Assembly (NCBI GenBank): GCA_024653775.1
Contig: JANLHZ010000098.1
Coordinates: 1-37,428 of the forward strand
Direction of reading: 5' to 3'
Length of the DNA: 37,428 bases
Source of the DNA: Planctomycetota bacterium
GTDB lineage: Bacteria; Planctomycetota; UBA8742; JACQVU01; JANLHZ01
Both the position numbers and the translations under genes were made by a program. A model generated the notes under the pieces. The model saw only the letters and a program-made list of their open reading frames with translations, searched no databases and was not told the DNA's origin. Shown here in pieces: positions 391 to 9,739 of the stretch; the first letter of the stretch is position 1; the number at the start of each line of letters is the position of its first letter.

Positions 391-441
391 TTCCCTTACC
401 CTGCGCATCGCGCCACCCTCTCCCCGGAGGGGGAGGATTAT

Positions 442-464
442 GCGGACGGGGACGTCCGCGGTCC
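442..464. repeat. Palindromic repeat, copy 1 (GCGGAC...GTCCGC)
   Basis: A 23-base stretch contains GCGGAC, a six-base loop, then GTCCGC and GGTCC. A second copy with one difference occurs at 27061-27083 and a degenerate piece at 36021-36038. Both full copies sit directly next to the T-run of an intrinsic terminator. Confidence 0.6.
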
Positions 465-466
465 CG

Positions 467-497
467 AAAAAAAAAGGGCGGGTGTTATCCCGCCCTT
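467..497 (-). terminator. Intrinsic terminator of the MamK-family gene
   Basis: On the minus strand a perfect 9-bp stem (AAGGGCGGG / CCCGCCCTT) with a 6-base loop is followed by a run of T. It lies about 30 bases beyond the stop of the actin gene and should end its transcript before the downstream lipoprotein gene. Confidence 0.85.
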
Positions 498-526
498 CTC
501 GTTGAGTGTCACAAACTTCAGAGCTA

Positions 527-1654
527 TCAGGACAGGGCTTTCCAGTATTCGTCGGGCATATCGTGCGCGAGTTTCAGCGCGCCGTTGCAGCCGGCGAACA
601 TCGGTTCCTCGACGATTGTCACCTTGCCGCCGCCAAGCTCTTCGAGCGCGTCTTCGAGCGCGTCGTCGAGACCGACGATCTGGCTTCCGCCGCCGGCGAG
701 AAGGACATTGCCCCGGAGCTGCTGCTGGAACTCCGGATCGTACGACGCGATCAGTCTGCGAATGCCTTCCTTCATCGGCTCGACGATGGAAAGGCACGCG
801 TCCTTGATCTGTCCGCTGACCTCGAAGGAAGTCGGACGACCTTCGACCGGGAACTTCACGCTGATCGGACTGTTGACGCGACCGATGAATCCGAAGCGCT
901 CCTTGATGTCTTTCGCCATCTGGACGGTGAGCGACGCGCCTTCGCAGCTCTTCTTCAGGTTCTCGAAGAGCTTTCGATCGACGTAATCGCCGGCGAAGGT
1001 GTTCGTGAGCTGATCGTCCGGATCGGGCATCACGCCGTGCATGCGGCAGAGGTCGGTCGTACCGGCGCCTATGTCGATGACGAGCGCTCCGGTGAGCTGG
1101 TCGAGACCGTACGCGACGCTGAAAGGTTCGGACGCGATCATAACCGCGTCGACGACTTCACGGGCTGCGTCGATGATCGCCTGCTTGTTGTGGATGCTCG
1201 CCTGGGCGGGCGCGCCGATGACGGCGTACACAAGCTCGTCTGGACGGGGCTTCGCGAGGCTTACCACATGCTTCACGAGGTCGCGGGCGGCCTTCGCGTA
1301 GATCTTGGGGTCTTCCTTCGTGTCGCGGTTGTCGGCTTCGCTTCCGCGAATGACGCCGTGCTCGAGGGGACGGTAGAAGTTGCAGGAAAGACGGTGCGCG
1401 CGGGCTTCGGAGCCGAAGAGCACGTCCTTCTTGATGAGCTTGAACGCGACCGGGTCTTTCGGATACCCGACGCAGCTCTCGACGGTCGCGCGAACGCCGT
1501 TCGATGCGGCGATGCTCGACCGGGAAGTTCCGAGGTCGATGCCGACGTAAAGGACTCCTTTGTCCTTCCTCAGTTGAGCGGCGGTCTTTTGCTGCGCCTC
1601 TCTGACAGCGGGTCTTGCGTGATTGGGTTGGGTGGGGCCTTGCGCCTGAGCCAT
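527..1654 (-). CDS. mamK: MamK-family bacterial actin
   Basis: This 375-residue protein has the actin/Hsp70 ATPase fold signatures in order: phosphate-1 GIDLGTSR at 38-45, phosphate-2 VIDIGAGTTDL at 192-202, and an adenosine loop LLAGGGSQIVGLDDA near the C-terminus. The wider pattern (GYPKD at 63-67, VIGAPAQAS at 145-153, SEPFSVAYGLD at 175-185, PDDQLT, AGDYVD, IKERFGFIG, DPEFQ) matches MamK rather than MreB, ParM or FtsA. From memory of Magnetospirillum MamK, E176 and D194 line up with E143 and D161, which are needed for its ATP turnover; the 18-residue spacing is identical. The first 30 residues are an extra Q/A-rich tail. The start at ATG 1652-1654 is fixed by GGAGGT seven bases upstream; a longer frame to 1750 lacks such a site. 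MamK filaments position magnetosomes, but homologues also occur in bacteria not known to make them. No other magnetosome gene is visible. Confidence 0.83.
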   Translation of the reverse strand: MAQAQGPTQPNHARPAVREAQQKTAAQLRKDKGVLYVGIDLGTSRSSIAASNGVRATVESCVGYPKDPVAFKLIKKDVLFGSEARAHRLSCNFYRPLEHGVIRGSEADNRDTKEDPKIYAKAARDLVKHVVSLAKPRPDELVYAVIGAPAQASIHNKQAIIDAAREVVDAVMIASEPFSVAYGLDQLTGALVIDIGAGTTDLCRMHGVMPDPDDQLTNTFAGDYVDRKLFENLKKSCEGASLTVQMAKDIKERFGFIGRVNSPISVKFPVEGRPTSFEVSGQIKDACLSIVEPMKEGIRRLIASYDPEFQQQLRGNVLLAGGGSQIVGLDDALEDALEELGGGKVTIVEEPMFAGCNGALKLAHDMPDEYWKALS

Positions 1655-1738
1655 AGAATTACCTCCAGCGAAAAGAAAGGTGGGACTAGTTGAAGAATTT
1701 CGAGGAATGCGTTCGGGACTGTAAAGTCCATTTCGTAG

Positions 1739-1767
1739 ACTGCGCATCATGTCTCATGATGCGCAGT
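1739..1767. repeat. Perfect 12-bp stem hairpin upstream of the actin gene
   Basis: ACTGCGCATCAT and ATGATGCGCAGT flank a 5-base loop, about 85 bases upstream of the actin start. The left arm is preceded by TTCGTAG, so this may be a member of the GTAG-type REP family seen elsewhere. An operator is the alternative. The rest of the 1655-1962 spacer shows nothing coding. Confidence 0.6.
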
Positions 1768-1923
1768 GTCTATTTCAGCATTTTCGGCCCGGAACTGAAG
1801 GGATTTTTGAAAAAAAATAATTGCGAAACGATGCTTCGCGTCCACGCGTACAACTACCTGTGAACTACGCGGCACTTCCGCCATCGTCCGTGTTTTCACG
1901 GTCAAGATGACCGTGCCACATTT

Positions 1924-1944
1924 AATTCGTGCCGTCTACGAATT
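1924..1944. repeat. Left REP-like hairpin flanking the RAYT gene
   Basis: AATTCGT, a 7-base loop GCCGTCT, then ACGAATT. The 21 bases are the exact reverse complement of 2673-2693, so the transposase gene lies between inverted copies of the same hairpin. Confidence 0.8.
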
Positions 1945-1962
1945 ATTTGTAACATCAACTGA

Positions 1963-2631
1963 TCACTTCGTCTTTGCGGGTCTTCCGCGCTTTCCGGGGA
2001 ACAGATTCTGCCCGAACTGCGCGCCGAGTTCCTTAAGATACTCGTCGTCGCCGATGGGGCGGTTGGCGAAGATGTCTCGTCTGTAAGTCTTCAGCGCTTT
2101 TTCCTCGTCCGCCTTCTTCAGATATTTCTTCCAGTCCGAGGCGGCCTTTCCGAAACTCGAAATCTCTTGAATGAGTGGGTCTTCCTTTCTGGCGCCGACA
2201 TGGAAAGCCGCGCTCGACCAAGGGTACTCCCAGGAATTCTGAACGATTCCCGCACGCACCGGGTTCCGCTCTACGTACTTGATCGCCTCGTACAGGTGCG
2301 GATTGTCGAGCGCGCAGGAATAGAACCGCCCCTGCCAGACGTGACCGTTCCAGCCGTTCTTGCGGTTGAGCTTCCAAGCGTAACTCCGATGCGCCTCGCC
2401 GAAGCAGCCGGAAAACGCGGTCTTGTCCTCTGGGATCGCGATGAAGTGAACGTGATTGCTCATTAGGCACCACGCGATGAATTCGACACCGTTGAGCCTT
2501 GCAAACTTCTTCATGAGCGAGAGATAGATTTCGCGGTCGACGTCTTCGAAAAACACGTCCTGCCGCCGAATCCCGCGCTGAACGACGTGGTGGGGAATAT
2601 CTGGAAGAATGATTCTTGCGGCTCTCGACAT
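1963..2631 (-). CDS. REP-associated tyrosine transposase (RAYT, Y1 HUH family)
   Basis: This 222-residue protein has the RAYT layout. The N-terminus PHHVVQRGIRRQDVFF is characteristic. The HUH metal-binding motif is SNHVHF (H60, H62), GHVWQGRFYS lies at 96-105, and the predicted catalytic tyrosine is Y119 in KYVERNPVRAG. Members of this family cut single-stranded DNA at REP hairpins marked by a 5' GTAG, and are thought to spread them; RAYTs normally occur as single-copy domesticated genes. The surroundings fit: inverted hairpins lie on either side (1924-1944, 2666-2700, 2734-2753), and GTAG-type paired hairpins occur further along the window. The basic C-terminus (PGKRGRPAKTK) may help bind DNA. 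The frame is intact with no sign of decay. Confidence 0.9.
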   Translation of the reverse strand: MSRAARIILPDIPHHVVQRGIRRQDVFFEDVDREIYLSLMKKFARLNGVEFIAWCLMSNHVHFIAIPEDKTAFSGCFGEAHRSYAWKLNRKNGWNGHVWQGRFYSCALDNPHLYEAIKYVERNPVRAGIVQNSWEYPWSSAAFHVGARKEDPLIQEISSFGKAASDWKKYLKKADEEKALKTYRRDIFANRPIGDDEYLKELGAQFGQNLFPGKRGRPAKTK

Positions 2632-2665
2632 TGTTGCACCTGCGTAATTGGTTTTCTAAAAATAT

Positions 2666-2700
2666 TACACTAAATTCGTAGACGGCACGAATTTAGTGTA
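2666..2700. repeat. Right REP-like hairpin of the RAYT locus
   Basis: TACACTAAATTCGT and ACGAATTTAGTGTA form a perfect 14-bp stem around the loop AGACGGC. It begins 35 bases upstream of the RAYT start codon. The arms closely resemble the hairpin at 26011-26043. Confidence 0.8.
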
Positions 2701-2733
2701 TGGCAAAGTTATGGAGATCATTATCGTACAGAT

Positions 2734-2753
2734 AATTCGTAGACGGCACGAAT
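2734..2753. repeat. Second right-hand REP-like hairpin
   Basis: A further copy of the core (ATTCGT, AGACGGC, ACGAAT), in the same orientation as 2673-2693 and about 60 bases from it. Confidence 0.75.
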
Positions 2754-2763
2754 AAAAAGCAAT

Positions 2764-2792
2764 AAAAAAGCGGCGGATCGATTCCGCCGCTT
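2764..2792 (-). terminator. Intrinsic terminator of the double thioredoxin gene
   Basis: On the minus strand AAGCGGCGGA, a 5-base loop and TCCGCCGCTT form a perfect 10-bp stem followed by six T. It lies about 30 bases after the stop codon of the gene ending at 2819. Confidence 0.88.
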
Positions 2793-2818
2793 TCGATATG
2801 GATGAAACGAGACGACGA

Positions 2819-4567
2819 TCAGAATTCCTGACCGTCTTCGTCCGGAGCCGCAGGCGCGGGAAGGCTGGATTCGTCGCCTTCAGAAACTTCGAGGCCGAAC
2901 TGACCTGCGGCGACGCCTGAGCCGCGGACGATCACAAAATATTCGCCCGCGCCGAGGTTGATTTCGATTCTCGAAATCTGATTTTCGCCGGGGATGACGT
3001 CGTCGTGTTCCGCGAGGAGTCTTCCTTCCGCGGAATAGATTTCGACGAGAGTGTCGGTGCGGCCGGTGGTCTGGAACACCAGCGGATTCGAACTTCCCTC
3101 CAGGGTCAGACGGTAAACGATTTCGCCTCCGCGGGTGAAGGAGCCGCTTACGGTGTCGCCACTGCTGAGGTCGTCCTTCGCGAGACCGTCCAGATCGTCG
3201 CGAATCTCGATTTCGTAGTGTAGGGAAGTGGCTCCCGCCTCGCCGTCAAATCCTTCGACAACAAAGTAGTAGTCTTCCCCGGCGCGCCCGAGCGCCGCGA
3301 TGCGGGAGTTGGTATCGCCGCGCGCGACGTCGTCGTTCTCGGCTACCTGCCGGCCGTTCGAATCGTACAGGCTGAGGACGGTGTCCAGAGAGCCGCTGGT
3401 CTCGATGATCAGCCTTCCGCCTTCGAAGTCGCGGATCGCGAACACCGCTTCTTCGTTAGCATCGATCGCCAGCTCGGTGTCGGAGAGGTCGTAGTCAATT
3501 GCGACGTCGGCGAGATCGTCTCTTCTTGGGATCAGCGGGTCTACTCTGAAGTCCCTCTCCGGCGCGAGAATCTTGAGCAGCGCGTCAAGAGCGACGTGGG
3601 AGCGGTCGGTGTCCGCCGACTTCTCGACGATCACGCCTTCCGGGTCGATCAGAACCAGCGTCGGGATGAAAGTGACTTGATAAGTCTGCGCGATTTCGTT
3701 GGAGCCGTCATTCAGGAAGAGCCAGTTGTAGCGTTCCCGGTCGATCACCCCGAGCTGTTTTTCGGCTGTGTCGCCTCGCCAGTTGGTTCCAACGCTGACA
3801 AGCTGCCAGTCGTCGCGTTCTCCGAACTCCTGGAACAGCGGATTGAGCGCGCCCGCCATCACCGAGCGGCAGGGACCGCACCAGGTGGCCCAGAAGTCGA
3901 GGAGGACGTACTTGCCGCGGAGATCGCTCAGCTTGACGCTTTCTTCCTCGCGCACCATCGGGAGGGTGAAATCCGGAGCTTCATTGCCCTCGGACGCGTC
4001 GACTCTTCGCGTGGAAGTCGTGACGGCGCTGGATGTGGTCTCGGATGGCGGAGTCTCTTCGTTTGCTTCGATCGCTGAGCGAAGCGAGCGCACTGGGCCG
4101 TCGCCGTGACCGAGTTCCTTCACGACGCCTTCCTTATCGATGAACACGATGGTCGGAATGCCGCGAACTTCGTAGCTGCTCGTTATCGAGCCGTCCGGAT
4201 CGTGGACGAAGGTCCAGTTATAGCCGTTCTGGTTCGCGAAATTAAGCTGCTTTTCGGCGGTGTCGTTCCTCCAGTTGGTTCCGATGCTGATAAGCTGCCA
4301 GTCCTCGCGATCTCCGATTTCTCTATGGAGCGGGCCGAGGTGATTTCTCATTGCGTTGACGCAGGGACCGCACCAGGTGGCCCAGAAGTCGAGGAGGACG
4401 TATTTGCCCTTGAAATCCGCGAGGGACACTTCCGCGTCGGTGCGGATGTCCTTAAGAGTCCAGGCGGGGGCGTCGTCGCCGGCGCCGAGCGCGAGAGCGT
4501 TAGAAGGCGCGCCTGCGTATGAAACCACGAAAGCCGCCGCGAAGGTGAGTAAAGCAATGAACCTCAT
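2819..4567 (-). CDS. Secreted double thioredoxin-like (TlpA-type) protein with two PPC domains
   Basis: This is a 582-residue exported protein. Residues 1-26 are a signal peptide. Two TlpA/AhpC-type thioredoxin domains follow, each with FWATWCGPC (cysteines 66/69 and 230/233) and a conserved proline loop (GIPT, FIPT). A Ser/Thr-rich linker at about 171-190 separates them. The C-terminal third holds two repeats of the bacterial pre-peptidase type (SLDTVLSLYDSNG...AENDDV and TDTLVEIYSAEG...AEHDDV), a beta domain of secreted proteins. Both thioredoxin domains keep the CxxC pair, so thiol-disulfide exchange outside the cytoplasm is likely; the substrate is unknown. The DNA around the two active sites (about 3870-3915 and 4352-4400) is nearly identical, so the domains arose by internal duplication or are kept alike by conversion. 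ATG 4565-4567 has AAAGG upstream. Confidence 0.85.
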   Translation of the reverse strand: MRFIALLTFAAAFVVSYAGAPSNALALGAGDDAPAWTLKDIRTDAEVSLADFKGKYVLLDFWATWCGPCVNAMRNHLGPLHREIGDREDWQLISIGTNWRNDTAEKQLNFANQNGYNWTFVHDPDGSITSSYEVRGIPTIVFIDKEGVVKELGHGDGPVRSLRSAIEANEETPPSETTSSAVTTSTRRVDASEGNEAPDFTLPMVREEESVKLSDLRGKYVLLDFWATWCGPCRSVMAGALNPLFQEFGERDDWQLVSVGTNWRGDTAEKQLGVIDRERYNWLFLNDGSNEIAQTYQVTFIPTLVLIDPEGVIVEKSADTDRSHVALDALLKILAPERDFRVDPLIPRRDDLADVAIDYDLSDTELAIDANEEAVFAIRDFEGGRLIIETSGSLDTVLSLYDSNGRQVAENDDVARGDTNSRIAALGRAGEDYYFVVEGFDGEAGATSLHYEIEIRDDLDGLAKDDLSSGDTVSGSFTRGGEIVYRLTLEGSSNPLVFQTTGRTDTLVEIYSAEGRLLAEHDDVIPGENQISRIEINLGAGEYFVIVRGSGVAAGQFGLEVSEGDESSLPAPAAPDEDGQEF

Positions 4568-4650
4568 AGATGAGCCTTTCGTCCAGTCGCTAAAAGATGT
4601 CGGTCAATGAAATTGTCCTAAATGATGAACTGAATCGTTCGATTTCGCCA

Positions 4651-5349
4651 CTACTTTTGAAATATGAACGCGAGAACGTGTCTATCGTATTCCTCGCCGT
4701 ACATTTTTGACTTTCCCTGCTTATCCCAGAACGCAAGAATTTCCATCGGACGGAATTCCTCTATCACTTCCTCCCGCGAGAAGAGTTTGCTTGAAATCCC
4801 GCTCACAGGGTCGGTTACGACCCGTTCTCCGGACAGCGCGCCTCCCGGAAGAAGCTGCGAATAGTAGCCGTCATCCACCGCGGCGAGGGAAATAAAAAAA
4901 AGCGCCCCCGGCGCTAGAATTCGATCCAGCTCGAGTTTGTAGCGCTCTCGTTCGAGCGGGCTGACGAGGTGTTTCGAGACGAAAATATCGATCGCTCCGT
5001 CGAAGGAGGAATCCCGCAGGAACTCGTTTCTCTGGTCGATTCGTCCCCGTCGGACGTCGAATCCCGGATTTCCCGCGGTTTCGCGGAGTTTCACAAGCGC
5101 CTCAGCCATTTCGATGGCTTTCGCGGAGCTGTCGATCCCAAGGACCGAAATTCCCTGGTCTGCGAGAAACGCCGCGTTTCGGCCCGTGCCGCAGCCGAGG
5201 TCGATGACCCGCGCGAGCGGATTTTCCGGCCTGACGAATTTTGCGTTGGCGAGGAACCACCTAAGCGTCGTCGAAGGCGATTCCCGCTTGGTGCAGGGAA
5301 TTCCGCCTTTCCGGAATTCTTCGTCCCAGAGGCCCGACATATCTTTCAT
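4651..5349 (-). CDS. Class I SAM-dependent methyltransferase
   Basis: This 232-residue protein has a Rossmann-type methyltransferase core. Motif I is VIDLGCGTG (residues 48-56), followed by the acidic motif II in SVLGIDSS and an IDIFVSKH segment at the position of motif IV. The lead-in LWDEEFRKGGIP resembles small-molecule methyltransferases of the UbiE/tellurite-resistance (TehB-like) group. The acceptor cannot be told from sequence. It is on the minus strand upstream of the thioredoxin gene with an 83-base gap, so the two may be cotranscribed. It is divergent from the HEAT-cyclophilin gene, with 88 bases between the starts. Two starts three codons apart (5349 and 5340) are possible; neither has a strong ribosome-binding site. 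Confidence 0.75.
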   Translation of the reverse strand: MKDMSGLWDEEFRKGGIPCTKRESPSTTLRWFLANAKFVRPENPLARVIDLGCGTGRNAAFLADQGISVLGIDSSAKAIEMAEALVKLRETAGNPGFDVRRGRIDQRNEFLRDSSFDGAIDIFVSKHLVSPLERERYKLELDRILAPGALFFISLAAVDDGYYSQLLPGGALSGERVVTDPVSGISSKLFSREEVIEEFRPMEILAFWDKQGKSKMYGEEYDRHVLAFIFQK

Positions 5350-5437
5350 ATTAGAATTTGACTTTGGTTTTGCCTTCTACGATTTCTACAATCGAAAGTT
5401 GTGTATCAAAAGCAGAAATTCAGAATATAGGTCGGTT

Positions 5438-8074
5438 ATGAAAACATATCTGTTCGCCGCCACGGTATTTTTGGTGGTTGTTTTCGCAAGTTGTTCGTCA
5501 TTTCGCGACAGACGGCAGTCGCTCGACGACGCCGGAAAGTTTGCGGAAACCCGCGGACCGAAGCTCCAGACAATCGCGCTTTACGAGGATCGCAGGTTGT
5601 CGGTCGAGGTTCTGCGCGGTTATCTGACGGACCCGGACCCGGTGGTACGCTCTCGCGCTGCAATCGCTATCGGTCGCTGCTCTGATAAAGAGTCGCTGAA
5701 GGATTTCGAGAGCTGCATCACCCGCGGAACCGACCTCGGGACTCTTGAAAGTTGCATCTACGCCATCGGACTGACGAGGGACTCGATGGGAAGGGGACTC
5801 GTGGGAATGTTCCTCTCCCACGGAAATCCGCGAATCCGCTCAGCGGCGACGGAAGCATACGCTCTTCTCGGCGCTGGGATGGCGCTCGAAAAGCCGGAAG
5901 AGTTGGAAACGAACGAAGCAGGCGCTTCCGTGAATTCTGAGGAGATCGACGAGGAGAAGGAGGAAGACGCGCGCCGGAACTTCGAATTCACTCTCGCTCC
6001 CTGGCGGCTTAACCTGATGGACGAGGACGAGAACGTGCGCTTCATCGCCGCGGCGAACGTGTGGCGGTTCTTCCCCGGACGGGACAAACTTCCGAAGGGT
6101 CGAAAGCCGTACGTGCCGCAGAATCTCGCGGAGGACTGGAATCTCGCCTGCGTCGATGACAGCCCGCGGGTTCGCTCGGCGGCGTGGCAGAGTCTATATC
6201 TCGCGCGGGTGGATCCGTGGGACGAAACCATCTCGCTCGCGGCAGAACTTGACGAGCCGGAATCGATGATGTTCGCGCTCGTGTGCGCCGCGCGTCTGAA
6301 GGCCGGGCAAAGCGTGGACATGCTTCTAAATACGTCTGTCAGCCGCGATTACCGCGTGAACGTGAACCTGATCGGCGCGCTCGGCGGGCTGAAAAGCGAA
6401 GCTGGTCTCGCGCGTCTGCTCGAACTGTTCCCGTACAAGGCCGAGGACGAGAACGAGCCGCTGGAGTTTCACTACAAGAAGGCGATGTGCGCTGCGCTCG
6501 CCAATTCGGCTGACCTAGCGAAGCAGAGCGTCCTCGCGCGTTACTATCTGCTGCGCTGCCTCGGGTTCAGGGAGGACGAGGCCAGGGAGATTTCAGATGG
6601 TTCGATCAGAGACGTGGGCGAGCTTGTCCGGACGTCGAAGATTCCGCGGGGAAGCGCGAACGAACGCGCGAGCGTCGTCGAGAAAGCCATAGGCGCGTAC
6701 GCGGAAGTATTCGGCGCGGAAGGAATCAAGGTTGTCGGCGGACTCGCGTACGATTCCGACCCCATCGTCGCAAGCGCCGCGCTTTCCGAGATCCATCGAA
6801 AGCCGGATATGAAGAGCGTCGAACTGCTGGAGGATTTCGCTGTTATGGATCATTTCCTCGTCCGCGCGGGAGTCGCGAGTTCTTACGCCGAGATACTGAA
6901 GAAGTGCAACGCGAAACTCCATCCGGAGGAAAAGGAGGAAGGCGCGACGGATGAGAACGCCTTGGAGACCGCGGAGGATACAGCGGTTGACGACACCAAC
7001 TACGATGCGCTCAGAAATGAAGTCCTCCGGAGACTGCTTCCGTTCCTTCGCGACGAGGACAAGCTCGTGAACTATCAGGCTATCGACGGACTATCGTCGG
7101 AGTGGGATTACAGAATTCTTGGCCGTCTCCGCGCGGAACTTTCCGCTCACCCCGGCTTCGAGGGAATCGACATCCGCGACTCCGCGGTGAGCGCGATTGG
7201 AGCCGTGAGCGCGAGATGCTTCAAAAACTATCTCGACCAAATTCTCTCCGCGGACCTGATGGACTCGATGCCGTTTTCGATCGAAGTCGAAGACAGCGGA
7301 CAGTTCACGGAAAGCGTTCCACCCGGCGTCTTCAGACTTGCCAGGAACCAGCTTTCGTCCTTTATTCTGTATTGCTTCCACTTCGAGGGCACTGCTGACC
7401 TGGCGGAGCTGTACGGCGCGGTCCGGGCGCTCGAGCGGGCGTGCGAGGATCCATCGATAGCGGTGCGAAACTCCGCGAAGGCCGCGATCGAGAAGATCGT
7501 GAGCGCGTCGATGCCTTCAGTGGGGGAGCCGGAGGCGGGTTCCCTCGAAGCGAGGCAGAAGCAGGCGCTTGAATCCATCTCGGTTCACGTCGCGACCGAC
7601 CGCGCAGACACCGGCACGCTTCCATTCGACGTCCAGAATGATCTGCTTTCCGGAAGGGTGAACGTTCTGCTGGAAACGACAAAAGGCGACATCCGCCTCG
7701 AACTCGACGCCGACGTTGCGCCGATGCACGTTACGAACTACGTGATTCTCGCCAAACGCGGCTTTTATGATAATAACGTCATCCATCGCGCGGAACCGAA
7801 CTGGGTCCTTCAGTTCGGCTGCCCCCGCGGCGACGGATGGGGCGACGCAGGCTATCTCGTCCGGCACGAAGTCAATCCGCAGTATTTCGATGAGGGCATC
7901 GTCGGGCTTGCCACCTCGGGACCGGATACGGGTTCCTGCCAGCCGTTCATAATGATCCGTCCCGGATACCATCTGAACGAAGTCTTTACCGCGTTCGGCA
8001 AGGTGACCGAGGGAATGGCGGTCGTTCATCTTCTCGACAAGGGTGACGTCATCCTCCGCGTTACCGTCGAATAA
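5438..8074 (+). CDS. HEAT-repeat lipoprotein fused to a cyclophilin peptidyl-prolyl isomerase
   Basis: This 878-residue protein begins with a lipoprotein signal (MKTYLFAATVFLVVVFASC, lipobox FASC), so it should be anchored in the cell envelope. Residues from about 50 to 730 are helical HEAT-like repeats with recurring segments such as DPDPVVRSRAAIAIG, DENVRFIAAANVW and DDSPRVRSAAWQSL. They are interrupted by acidic linkers (around EEIDEEKEEDARR and EEKEEGATDENALE). Residues about 740-878 are a cyclophilin-type domain. It starts LLETTKGDIRLEL, has the catalytic-type pair H783-R784 and Q835 in SCQPF (where many cyclophilins have QFF), and ends with FGKVTEGMAVV. The likely role is an extracytoplasmic folding factor with a large protein-binding arm. 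ATG 5438 gives the complete signal peptide; the upstream extension would place it inside the protein. Confidence 0.85.
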   Translation: MKTYLFAATVFLVVVFASCSSFRDRRQSLDDAGKFAETRGPKLQTIALYEDRRLSVEVLRGYLTDPDPVVRSRAAIAIGRCSDKESLKDFESCITRGTDLGTLESCIYAIGLTRDSMGRGLVGMFLSHGNPRIRSAATEAYALLGAGMALEKPEELETNEAGASVNSEEIDEEKEEDARRNFEFTLAPWRLNLMDEDENVRFIAAANVWRFFPGRDKLPKGRKPYVPQNLAEDWNLACVDDSPRVRSAAWQSLYLARVDPWDETISLAAELDEPESMMFALVCAARLKAGQSVDMLLNTSVSRDYRVNVNLIGALGGLKSEAGLARLLELFPYKAEDENEPLEFHYKKAMCAALANSADLAKQSVLARYYLLRCLGFREDEAREISDGSIRDVGELVRTSKIPRGSANERASVVEKAIGAYAEVFGAEGIKVVGGLAYDSDPIVASAALSEIHRKPDMKSVELLEDFAVMDHFLVRAGVASSYAEILKKCNAKLHPEEKEEGATDENALETAEDTAVDDTNYDALRNEVLRRLLPFLRDEDKLVNYQAIDGLSSEWDYRILGRLRAELSAHPGFEGIDIRDSAVSAIGAVSARCFKNYLDQILSADLMDSMPFSIEVEDSGQFTESVPPGVFRLARNQLSSFILYCFHFEGTADLAELYGAVRALERACEDPSIAVRNSAKAAIEKIVSASMPSVGEPEAGSLEARQKQALESISVHVATDRADTGTLPFDVQNDLLSGRVNVLLETTKGDIRLELDADVAPMHVTNYVILAKRGFYDNNVIHRAEPNWVLQFGCPRGDGWGDAGYLVRHEVNPQYFDEGIVGLATSGPDTGSCQPFIMIRPGYHLNEVFTAFGKVTEGMAVVHLLDKGDVILRVTVE

Positions 8075-8203: not shown

Positions 8204-9739
8204 ATGTCAAAAGCAGCAACAAGTTTCCGCGGACGGAGCGGTTACACCCTCGTCGAGATGATGGTGACGCTGATGATCTGCTCGATGCTCGCGCTCGCGC
8301 TGGGCGGGCTTGTTCAAGGCGCGATGGACCTCTGGAAAGGCGTCGAGGTCACGCGGGAGGTCACGGACTCCGGAATGGGCGTGATGCGCATCATCGAGGA
8401 CGATCTCGGCTCGATATATTGCAGAAACACGGACGATCAGATAGGCGACAACGTGAGATTCATCGCGGATCTCGTCTATCTCGGGCCGGACGACGATCTG
8501 CGGAGGTATCCGCGGATTCGCTTCATCCGCACGCTGCCCGGAGGAGAGGAGGCGAGCCTCGCAACATTGAATGCCGGAGCGATTCCGCTTTCCAATGGCG
8601 ACGCAGGCGACTACCTCCTCGGGATAAAGGACGCTGGCTGCGTTACCGACGTCCCCGATCCGATCACCGGCAAGGACCGCGAGGCGTCCACGATTCGCCC
8701 ACTCGGCGGACTGATGGAAGTCTGCTACATGATGGGACCGGAGCACGAGACAACGACGCTATGGCGCGGAATTCGTTCGCCGATCTATCTTGGGACGCCA
8801 ACGCCGGCGGGGGAAGCGCCTTCATTCATGGAACTCGCGCCATACGAGCCGCTCGATCCCGCGATTCCGTGGGCGAGCGTCATGTCTTCGCTTTCGTCGA
8901 ACGTCATCCACTTTGGCGTGGACATCTGGGTCGACGTAGGAGGCGGTGACGGCTATTTCTCCGACCTCGTGTCCCATCCCGCGCTGAAGGACCCGTCCGG
9001 ACGCGCGCTCGAATTCTGGGACTCCGCGGAAGTCATAGACGATCCGGCGCATCCGGGCGATCCCGCGTACCAGAGGCGACGAGGGTATCCGGACAAGGTT
9101 CGAATCATGGTCGTCGTCGTGCCACGAGGAATGTCGACGAGGACCACTGATCTTGGGTCGGACGTCGCCGCGGACGACGAGGAACTCGAACTCTTCGATT
9201 CGACGGGATTTCCTTCTCCTCCGCGGAACCAGCTCAAGTTCGTGAAGGTCGACGACGAGTGGATCGGGTACGGAGCGGTCGAAGGATACAATCTCACGGG
9301 GCTGGTGCGAGGCGCGCGGGGCACGATTCCCGCGGAGCACTCTGAAGGCGCCATCGTCGAGCCGGACCCGGTTCGTCCGGCGGATATCGTCGGAACGAGG
9401 CTTCTTGACGATCTTTCCGTGGACGATACTTATGACCTTCCGAACGGAATTACGTGGCCTTTCGATGAGGACGATCGCGACAGGCTGCGGAGATTGAGCG
9501 GTCCTGGACTCGATGTCGAGCGCGGCGAAGTGCTTCCGGAGGGCGGAACCGAGCACAGCGCGATCCGCGTCGGAAGCGAATGGATCTGGTACGCCTGGCG
9601 AAACGGAAGCAGCCTGTACGGACTCGTCCGCGGCTACAACGACACGATTCCGCGCAGCCATCGCGCTGGCGAGACCGTCCTTACGGGGACGCTGTTCCAG
9701 AAAGTATTTCACTTCAATACGAACGGAGTCGCCCGTTGA
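8204..9739 (+). CDS. Large minor pseudopilin, PulJ/GspJ-like N-terminus with repeats
   Basis: This 511-residue protein has a type IV prepilin signal: a short basic leader, cleavage expected after G13, Y14 as +1 and the conserved glutamate E18 at +5 (YTLVEMM), then a hydrophobic helix. GspJ proteins are usually about 200 residues, so this one has a long extra C-terminal region. That region holds two copies of one module: VKVDDEWIGY...LTGLVRGARGTIP and IRVGSEWIWY...LYGLVRGYNDTIP, each followed by a histidine. The product is probably a component of a type II secretion or pilus-like machine in the inner membrane and periplasm. The next gene is a second pseudopilin. ATG 8204 suits the prepilin leader; a GTG at 8111 would add 31 residues before it. 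No strong ribosome-binding site is seen. Confidence 0.8.
   Translation: MSKAATSFRGRSGYTLVEMMVTLMICSMLALALGGLVQGAMDLWKGVEVTREVTDSGMGVMRIIEDDLGSIYCRNTDDQIGDNVRFIADLVYLGPDDDLRRYPRIRFIRTLPGGEEASLATLNAGAIPLSNGDAGDYLLGIKDAGCVTDVPDPITGKDREASTIRPLGGLMEVCYMMGPEHETTTLWRGIRSPIYLGTPTPAGEAPSFMELAPYEPLDPAIPWASVMSSLSSNVIHFGVDIWVDVGGGDGYFSDLVSHPALKDPSGRALEFWDSAEVIDDPAHPGDPAYQRRRGYPDKVRIMVVVVPRGMSTRTTDLGSDVAADDEELELFDSTGFPSPPRNQLKFVKVDDEWIGYGAVEGYNLTGLVRGARGTIPAEHSEGAIVEPDPVRPADIVGTRLLDDLSVDDTYDLPNGITWPFDEDDRDRLRRLSGPGLDVERGEVLPEGGTEHSAIRVGSEWIWYAWRNGSSLYGLVRGYNDTIPRSHRAGETVLTGTLFQKVFHFNTNGVAR

Follow-up and report, generated by a model that had tools for sequence, protein, structure and literature searches.

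What does a MamK-family actin do in a planctomycete whose genome yields no match to two magnetosome markers? The question is raised by a gene lying 527 bp from the end of contig JANLHZ010000098.1 of a Planctomycetota bacterium (GCA_024653775.1); the whole 37,428-nucleotide stretch analyzed here is referred to as the window. The initial annotation of this DNA had called the gene an orphan and left two options, a magnetosome cluster located elsewhere or a filament that organizes something else.

The gene and its local signals

The gene consists of 375 codons and a stop, an exact fit to positions 527–1654, and runs on the minus strand (1654→527) from an ATG at 1654 to a TGA at 527–529. The earlier gene call was exact in its coordinates and wrong in its strand. 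A plus-strand frame over 527–1654 was rejected as a shadow frame, the true gene being antisense to it. The ribosome-binding site and terminator claimed in the same call are both present on the minus strand: a Shine-Dalgarno GGAGG (1662–1666), read directly from the sequence, precedes the ATG by 7 nt, and an intrinsic terminator (467–497), a strong GC-rich hairpin (−21 kcal/mol by RNA folding) followed by a T run, begins about 30 bp past the stop. The hairpin was absent from the minus-strand output of a generic terminator scan. The added Q/A-rich "tail" of 30 residues is real as an extension of about 31 residues before the fold, but it is N-terminal (residues 1–31; 1562–1654, minus strand), the MamK match starting at residue 32–35. 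A perfect 13-bp inverted repeat (1739–1767) lies 85 bp upstream of the actin start, close to a gene for an IS200-type transposase (1963–2631), and occurs as a single copy in the window and the loci fetched.

Assignment to the MamK family

By its sequence, the window protein is a MamK-family actin and not an MreB. MamK is its top NCBIfam family by a wide margin (NF040964, E 1.3e-123, 412.3 bits against a cut-off of 400), and the match spans residues 35–374, bearing out the MamK pattern along the whole length that the initial annotation had noted. The second NCBIfam match, BeeR (NF053558), scores 206 bits, below its cut-off of 530, and two MreB families score far under theirs (66.5 against 293 bits and 52.5 against 366 bits). 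The broad Pfam family MreB_Mbl is passed at its gathering score, and the match to ParM is weak (10.9 bits). The top PDB chain is likewise MamK (E 4.8e-78), followed by BeeR (1e-43) and MreB (3e-11). Two acidic residues 18 apart, given in the initial annotation as E143 and D161 of Magnetospirillum MamK, were found by alignment as E176 (codon at 1127–1129, minus strand), the counterpart of the MamK catalytic glutamate, and D194 (1073–1075, minus strand), the counterpart of its catalytic aspartate. The same spacing of 18 is seen in 35 of 41 tree rows; the two MreBs measured have 22 instead, and BeeR and a BeeR-like row (L067) have 30.

A tree had been proposed as the check on this assignment. In a maximum-likelihood tree from which Mad28, ParM and AlfA were left out, the window actin groups with MamK and BeeR and is split at 100/100 from three MreBs, among which is the genome's own separate MreB, encoded on contig C280. 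Placement inside MreB is thereby excluded. With respect to magnetosome MamK the outcome is less sharp: the MamK of Magnetospirillum magneticum AMB-1 falls inside the window-actin group, at a branching point that is poorly supported.

Magnetosome genes in the genome and the phylum

No magnetosome gene was recognized among the translations of the window, or among the ten window proteins scanned against Pfam, in agreement with the initial annotation. The source genome (5.4 Mb, 331 contigs, 96% complete) was searched by name for two magnetosome markers, the magnetochrome domain (PF18509) and MamQ (NF040966), and neither profile gave a match. The magnetochrome profile also found nothing in any of 20 genomes of the class (that of the window and 19 others). 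The actin, by contrast, occurs in 19 of these 20, the exception (G002) being 54% complete. Because both markers are missing from the window's genome and magnetochrome from the class, in which the actin persists, the second option of the initial annotation, that the filament organizes something else, is the favored one. The term "orphan" holds locally and with respect to a magnetosome; it does not hold in the sense of a stray gene, since the actin is conserved and a partner domain is encoded on another contig (see below).

Among 60 relatives, the magnetochrome profile matched two, G030 and G054. One contig of G030 (C135) encodes MamP, two MamM/MamB-type CDFs, MamA, MamQ and MamO-like proteins, for each of which the best match is a magnetosome family, although under its cut-off. 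As this cluster was clearly detected, it serves as a positive control that the magnetosome search works in the phylum. The magnetosome-type cluster of G030 occupies positions 437–6642 of the fetched locus (L187), and the genome also carries a volactin and a D-N gene (described below), without a MamK-family match at E 1e-40. G054 has magnetochrome and MamQ matches together with a MamK-family actin beside a coiled-coil partner (contigs C58, C72 and C232), making it a candidate magnetotactic member with a MamK-family actin system.

Distribution of the actin and a conserved putative adaptor domain

At a threshold of E 1e-40, a sample of 392 genomes from the phylum yielded MamK-family actins in 142, spread over 42 families. 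Most class genomes hold one copy, and most genomes here hold one actin of each kind, MamK-family and MreB. Within the window's own class, where neighboring genes were called by codon-usage scoring, nothing is conserved on either side of the actin. In other classes, the same-strand gene directly upstream often encodes a coiled-coil protein that belongs to no Pfam family; such a partner gene is also present in Planctomycetota bacterium DOLJORAL78_63_9 (L004), the actin of which is 58% identical to that of the window. At one further locus (L068, G041), the gene directly downstream of the MamK-family actin (5063–7357) encodes a 764-aa protein, one region of which is actin-like but divergent; its branch in the tree is very long.

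The C-terminal ~77 residues of the upstream coiled-coil proteins define a domain, here D-C, with the pattern LERRIxKL...GIASIYRxVQGL...K...L..IFxxNLALQ and the conserved motifs GIASVYKEVQGL and IFELN. D-C was detected in 80 of the 392 genomes, every one of which also has the actin, and in none of the 250 genomes that lack it. For no fewer than 63 of the D-C genomes, D-C is encoded on the same strand as the actin and at most 3 kb upstream. Counted by family, the only level at which these co-occurrence counts take relatedness into account, D-C occurs in 26 of the 42 families with the actin and in none of the families without it (put at 54 on the basis of the available labels). The association has gaps: 62 of the 142 actin genomes lack D-C at the threshold used, and in the 16 genomes of one family of the window's class (f4) the actin is present and D-C undetectable. 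Given these gaps, either D-C is dispensable or it has in places diverged beyond detection, and the f4 gap is the main weakness of a D-C adaptor model.

D-C is always C-terminal and is carried on differing N-terminal bodies. In L004, L058, L062 and others the body is a second domain, D-N, with a coiled coil; in L193 and L195 it is a degenerate GGDEF domain, with N-termini that look similar by eye in L202, L203, L206 and L208; and elsewhere it consists of hydrophobic segments, two in L104 (the window's genome) and L111 and one in L108. A constant end on variable bodies is the expected appearance of a filament-binding module placed on different anchors. In both GGDEF cases (L193, 4916–5893; L195, 5952–7043) the signature motif looks degenerate, and the gene stands directly upstream of a MamK-family actin. 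A gene for a CpsD/ParA-like ATPase adjoins the adaptor–actin pair at five loci (L004, at 8301–9071, L058, L062, L065 and L071). The D-C protein of the window's genome (contig C257, 9250–9477; 106 bits) is unlinked to the actin and has two N-terminal membrane helices predicted from a hydropathy plot only.

Searches of D-C and D-N against the PDB returned only chance coiled-coil matches, and searches of the adaptors against Pfam and NCBIfam returned coiled-coil noise or, in one lineage, GGDEF. A structure predicted for an adaptor from one sequence is helical (pLDDT 60). No description of either domain was found in family libraries or papers, a survey for which subscription journals and preprints were largely outside the scope. 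As a putative adaptor domain, D-C is conserved and has apparently gone undescribed.

A second domain, also encoded upstream of volactin

D-N is recognized by the motif LxKRGxxxVRVLxxxxIxxLIxxAV and occurs in 149 of the 392 genomes, 33 of which have no MamK-family actin. Thirty of these 33 encode an actin of the volactin family (PF25216), described from the haloarchaeon Haloferax volcanii (PMC10869688), so that one or both actins accompany D-N in 146 of 149 genomes. The link was first seen in G030, in which volactin lies directly downstream of the D-N gene, and at least 66 genomes have D-N encoded no more than 3 kb upstream of a same-strand volactin gene. Volactin-family actins themselves were found in 134 of 392 phylum genomes, often with a D-N coiled-coil gene immediately upstream; examples are L191 (6396–7448) and, in the window's genome, contig C68 (6413–7411; L201). 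That genome encodes two D-N proteins (C201 and C186) in addition to this volactin, all on separate contigs.

What the filament may hold

Four other accounts of the gene were weighed. The first is that it is a relict, a MamK kept after magnetosomes were lost from a magnetotactic ancestor of the phylum and now serving a new role. Magnetosome genes do survive in some members and MamK-family actins are spread across 42 families, which are consistent with such a history, but G030, the member with a magnetosome cluster, has no MamK-family match at 1e-40, the actin is far commoner than the magnetosome markers (2 of 60 relatives), and the tree leaves ambiguous where AMB-1 MamK joins. We regard this account as unlikely. 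That the protein is an additional shape factor of the MreB kind, acting together with the cell-wall machinery, is very improbable; this would accord with the Pfam MreB_Mbl score and with most genomes keeping one actin of each kind, but the protein falls far below both NCBIfam MreB cut-offs and on the other side of the 100/100 split, and wall-synthesis genes are absent beside the actin. Slimmer still is the chance that the protein is a true magnetosome MamK whose cluster lies in a region that the assembly failed to capture. Its high MamK-family score, the division of the genome into 331 contigs with the gene 527 bp from a contig end, and the existence of magnetosome clusters in the phylum (G030) would fit; against this stand the record of magnetochrome and actin in the class (0 of 20 against 19 of 20 genomes), the absence of MamQ here, and the lack of conserved actin neighbors on either side in class relatives. 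By the presence of a magnetosome cluster in the genome, the one functional criterion examined and judged here from the two markers, the protein is not a magnetosome MamK. Least plausible of all is a ParM-type DNA-segregating actin moving a replicon, toward which the ATPase gene adjoining the adaptor gene at five loci might point, but against which stand the weak ParM match, the lack of a conserved small DNA-binding neighbor, and the single copy in most class genomes.

The best reading, and one we consider likely, is of a MamK-family filament unrelated to magnetosomes and held by D-C adaptors. Its observed basis is the family membership and active-site residues of the actin, the absence of two markers, the co-occurrence and adjacency of D-C and actin, and the swapping of domains on the adaptors. 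The window actin would form a cytoplasmic filament, polymerizing with ATP, and its bacterium would be free of magnetosomes. D-C would bind this filament, and the varied N-termini of the adaptors (a coiled coil with D-N, a membrane anchor or a degenerate GGDEF domain) would couple it to cell structures. Because the unlinked C257 adaptor has two membrane helices predicted near its N-terminus, a membrane is the probable anchoring site of the filament. The cargo of the window actin is probably something other than magnets; by analogy with MamK, the filament would most likely position a stretch of membrane or a body inside the cell.

A broader proposal, which we see as evenly poised, is that the phylum runs its MamK-family and volactin-family actins through shared modular adaptors, with D-N upstream of either, D-C specific to MamK-family actins, and anchor domains swapped between lineages. 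If true, this two-actin adaptor code would organize cell structures that have nothing to do with magnetosomes, and it would point to recruitment of magnetosome MamK out of a more ancient, general cytoskeleton. The distribution bears on that same question of whether magnetosome MamK was borrowed from a nonmagnetic cytoskeleton: the actin in 42 families and D-C in 26, with the markers absent in nearly all genomes tested, point to a general filament role. The link between D-C and the actin also yields an immediate set of partner proteins to draw on. Relatives of MamK from nonmagnetotactic bacteria are already known; the adaptor module is without a report in the literature searched.

Comparison with known systems

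Compared with magnetosome MamK (NF040964; PDB 5jyg, 5ljv and 5ljw), the window actin shows full-length similarity, identical catalytic residues at identical spacing, and a score over the family cut-off. It differs in its N-terminal extension and in the lack of both markers from its genome, and across the phylum this actin is linked to D-C adaptors, not to a magnetosome cluster. "MamK actin-ancestors" of planctobacteria have been noted in an abstract (PMC7203096). BeeR is a MamK relative from Verrucomicrobiota, bacteria without magnetosomes (NF053558; PDB 8r2n; PMC11929497). Its N-terminal extension of 30–50 residues resembles the roughly 31 residues before the fold of the window actin; however, the latter reaches 206 bits against the 530 required of BeeR and has a spacing of 18 instead of 30, and BeeR sits with L067 on a separate branch.

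In AMB-1, itself magnetotactic, the gene for a MamK-like protein lies away from the magnetosome island, grouped in an islet with six further mam-like genes (PMC2818848). Both it and the window actin lie outside a main cluster, but no mam-like genes of this sort were found here. In Desulfovibrio magneticus RS-1, MamK works with the coiled-coil proteins Mad20, 23, 25 and 26 of magnetosome clusters (PMC12748827). Coiled-coil partners are common to both systems, and the Mad proteins are set beside D-N and D-C by description, not by sequence. Volactin (PF25216; PMC10869688), finally, belongs to a different actin family and is a second actin in both the window's genome and the phylum, where it, too, has D-N upstream.
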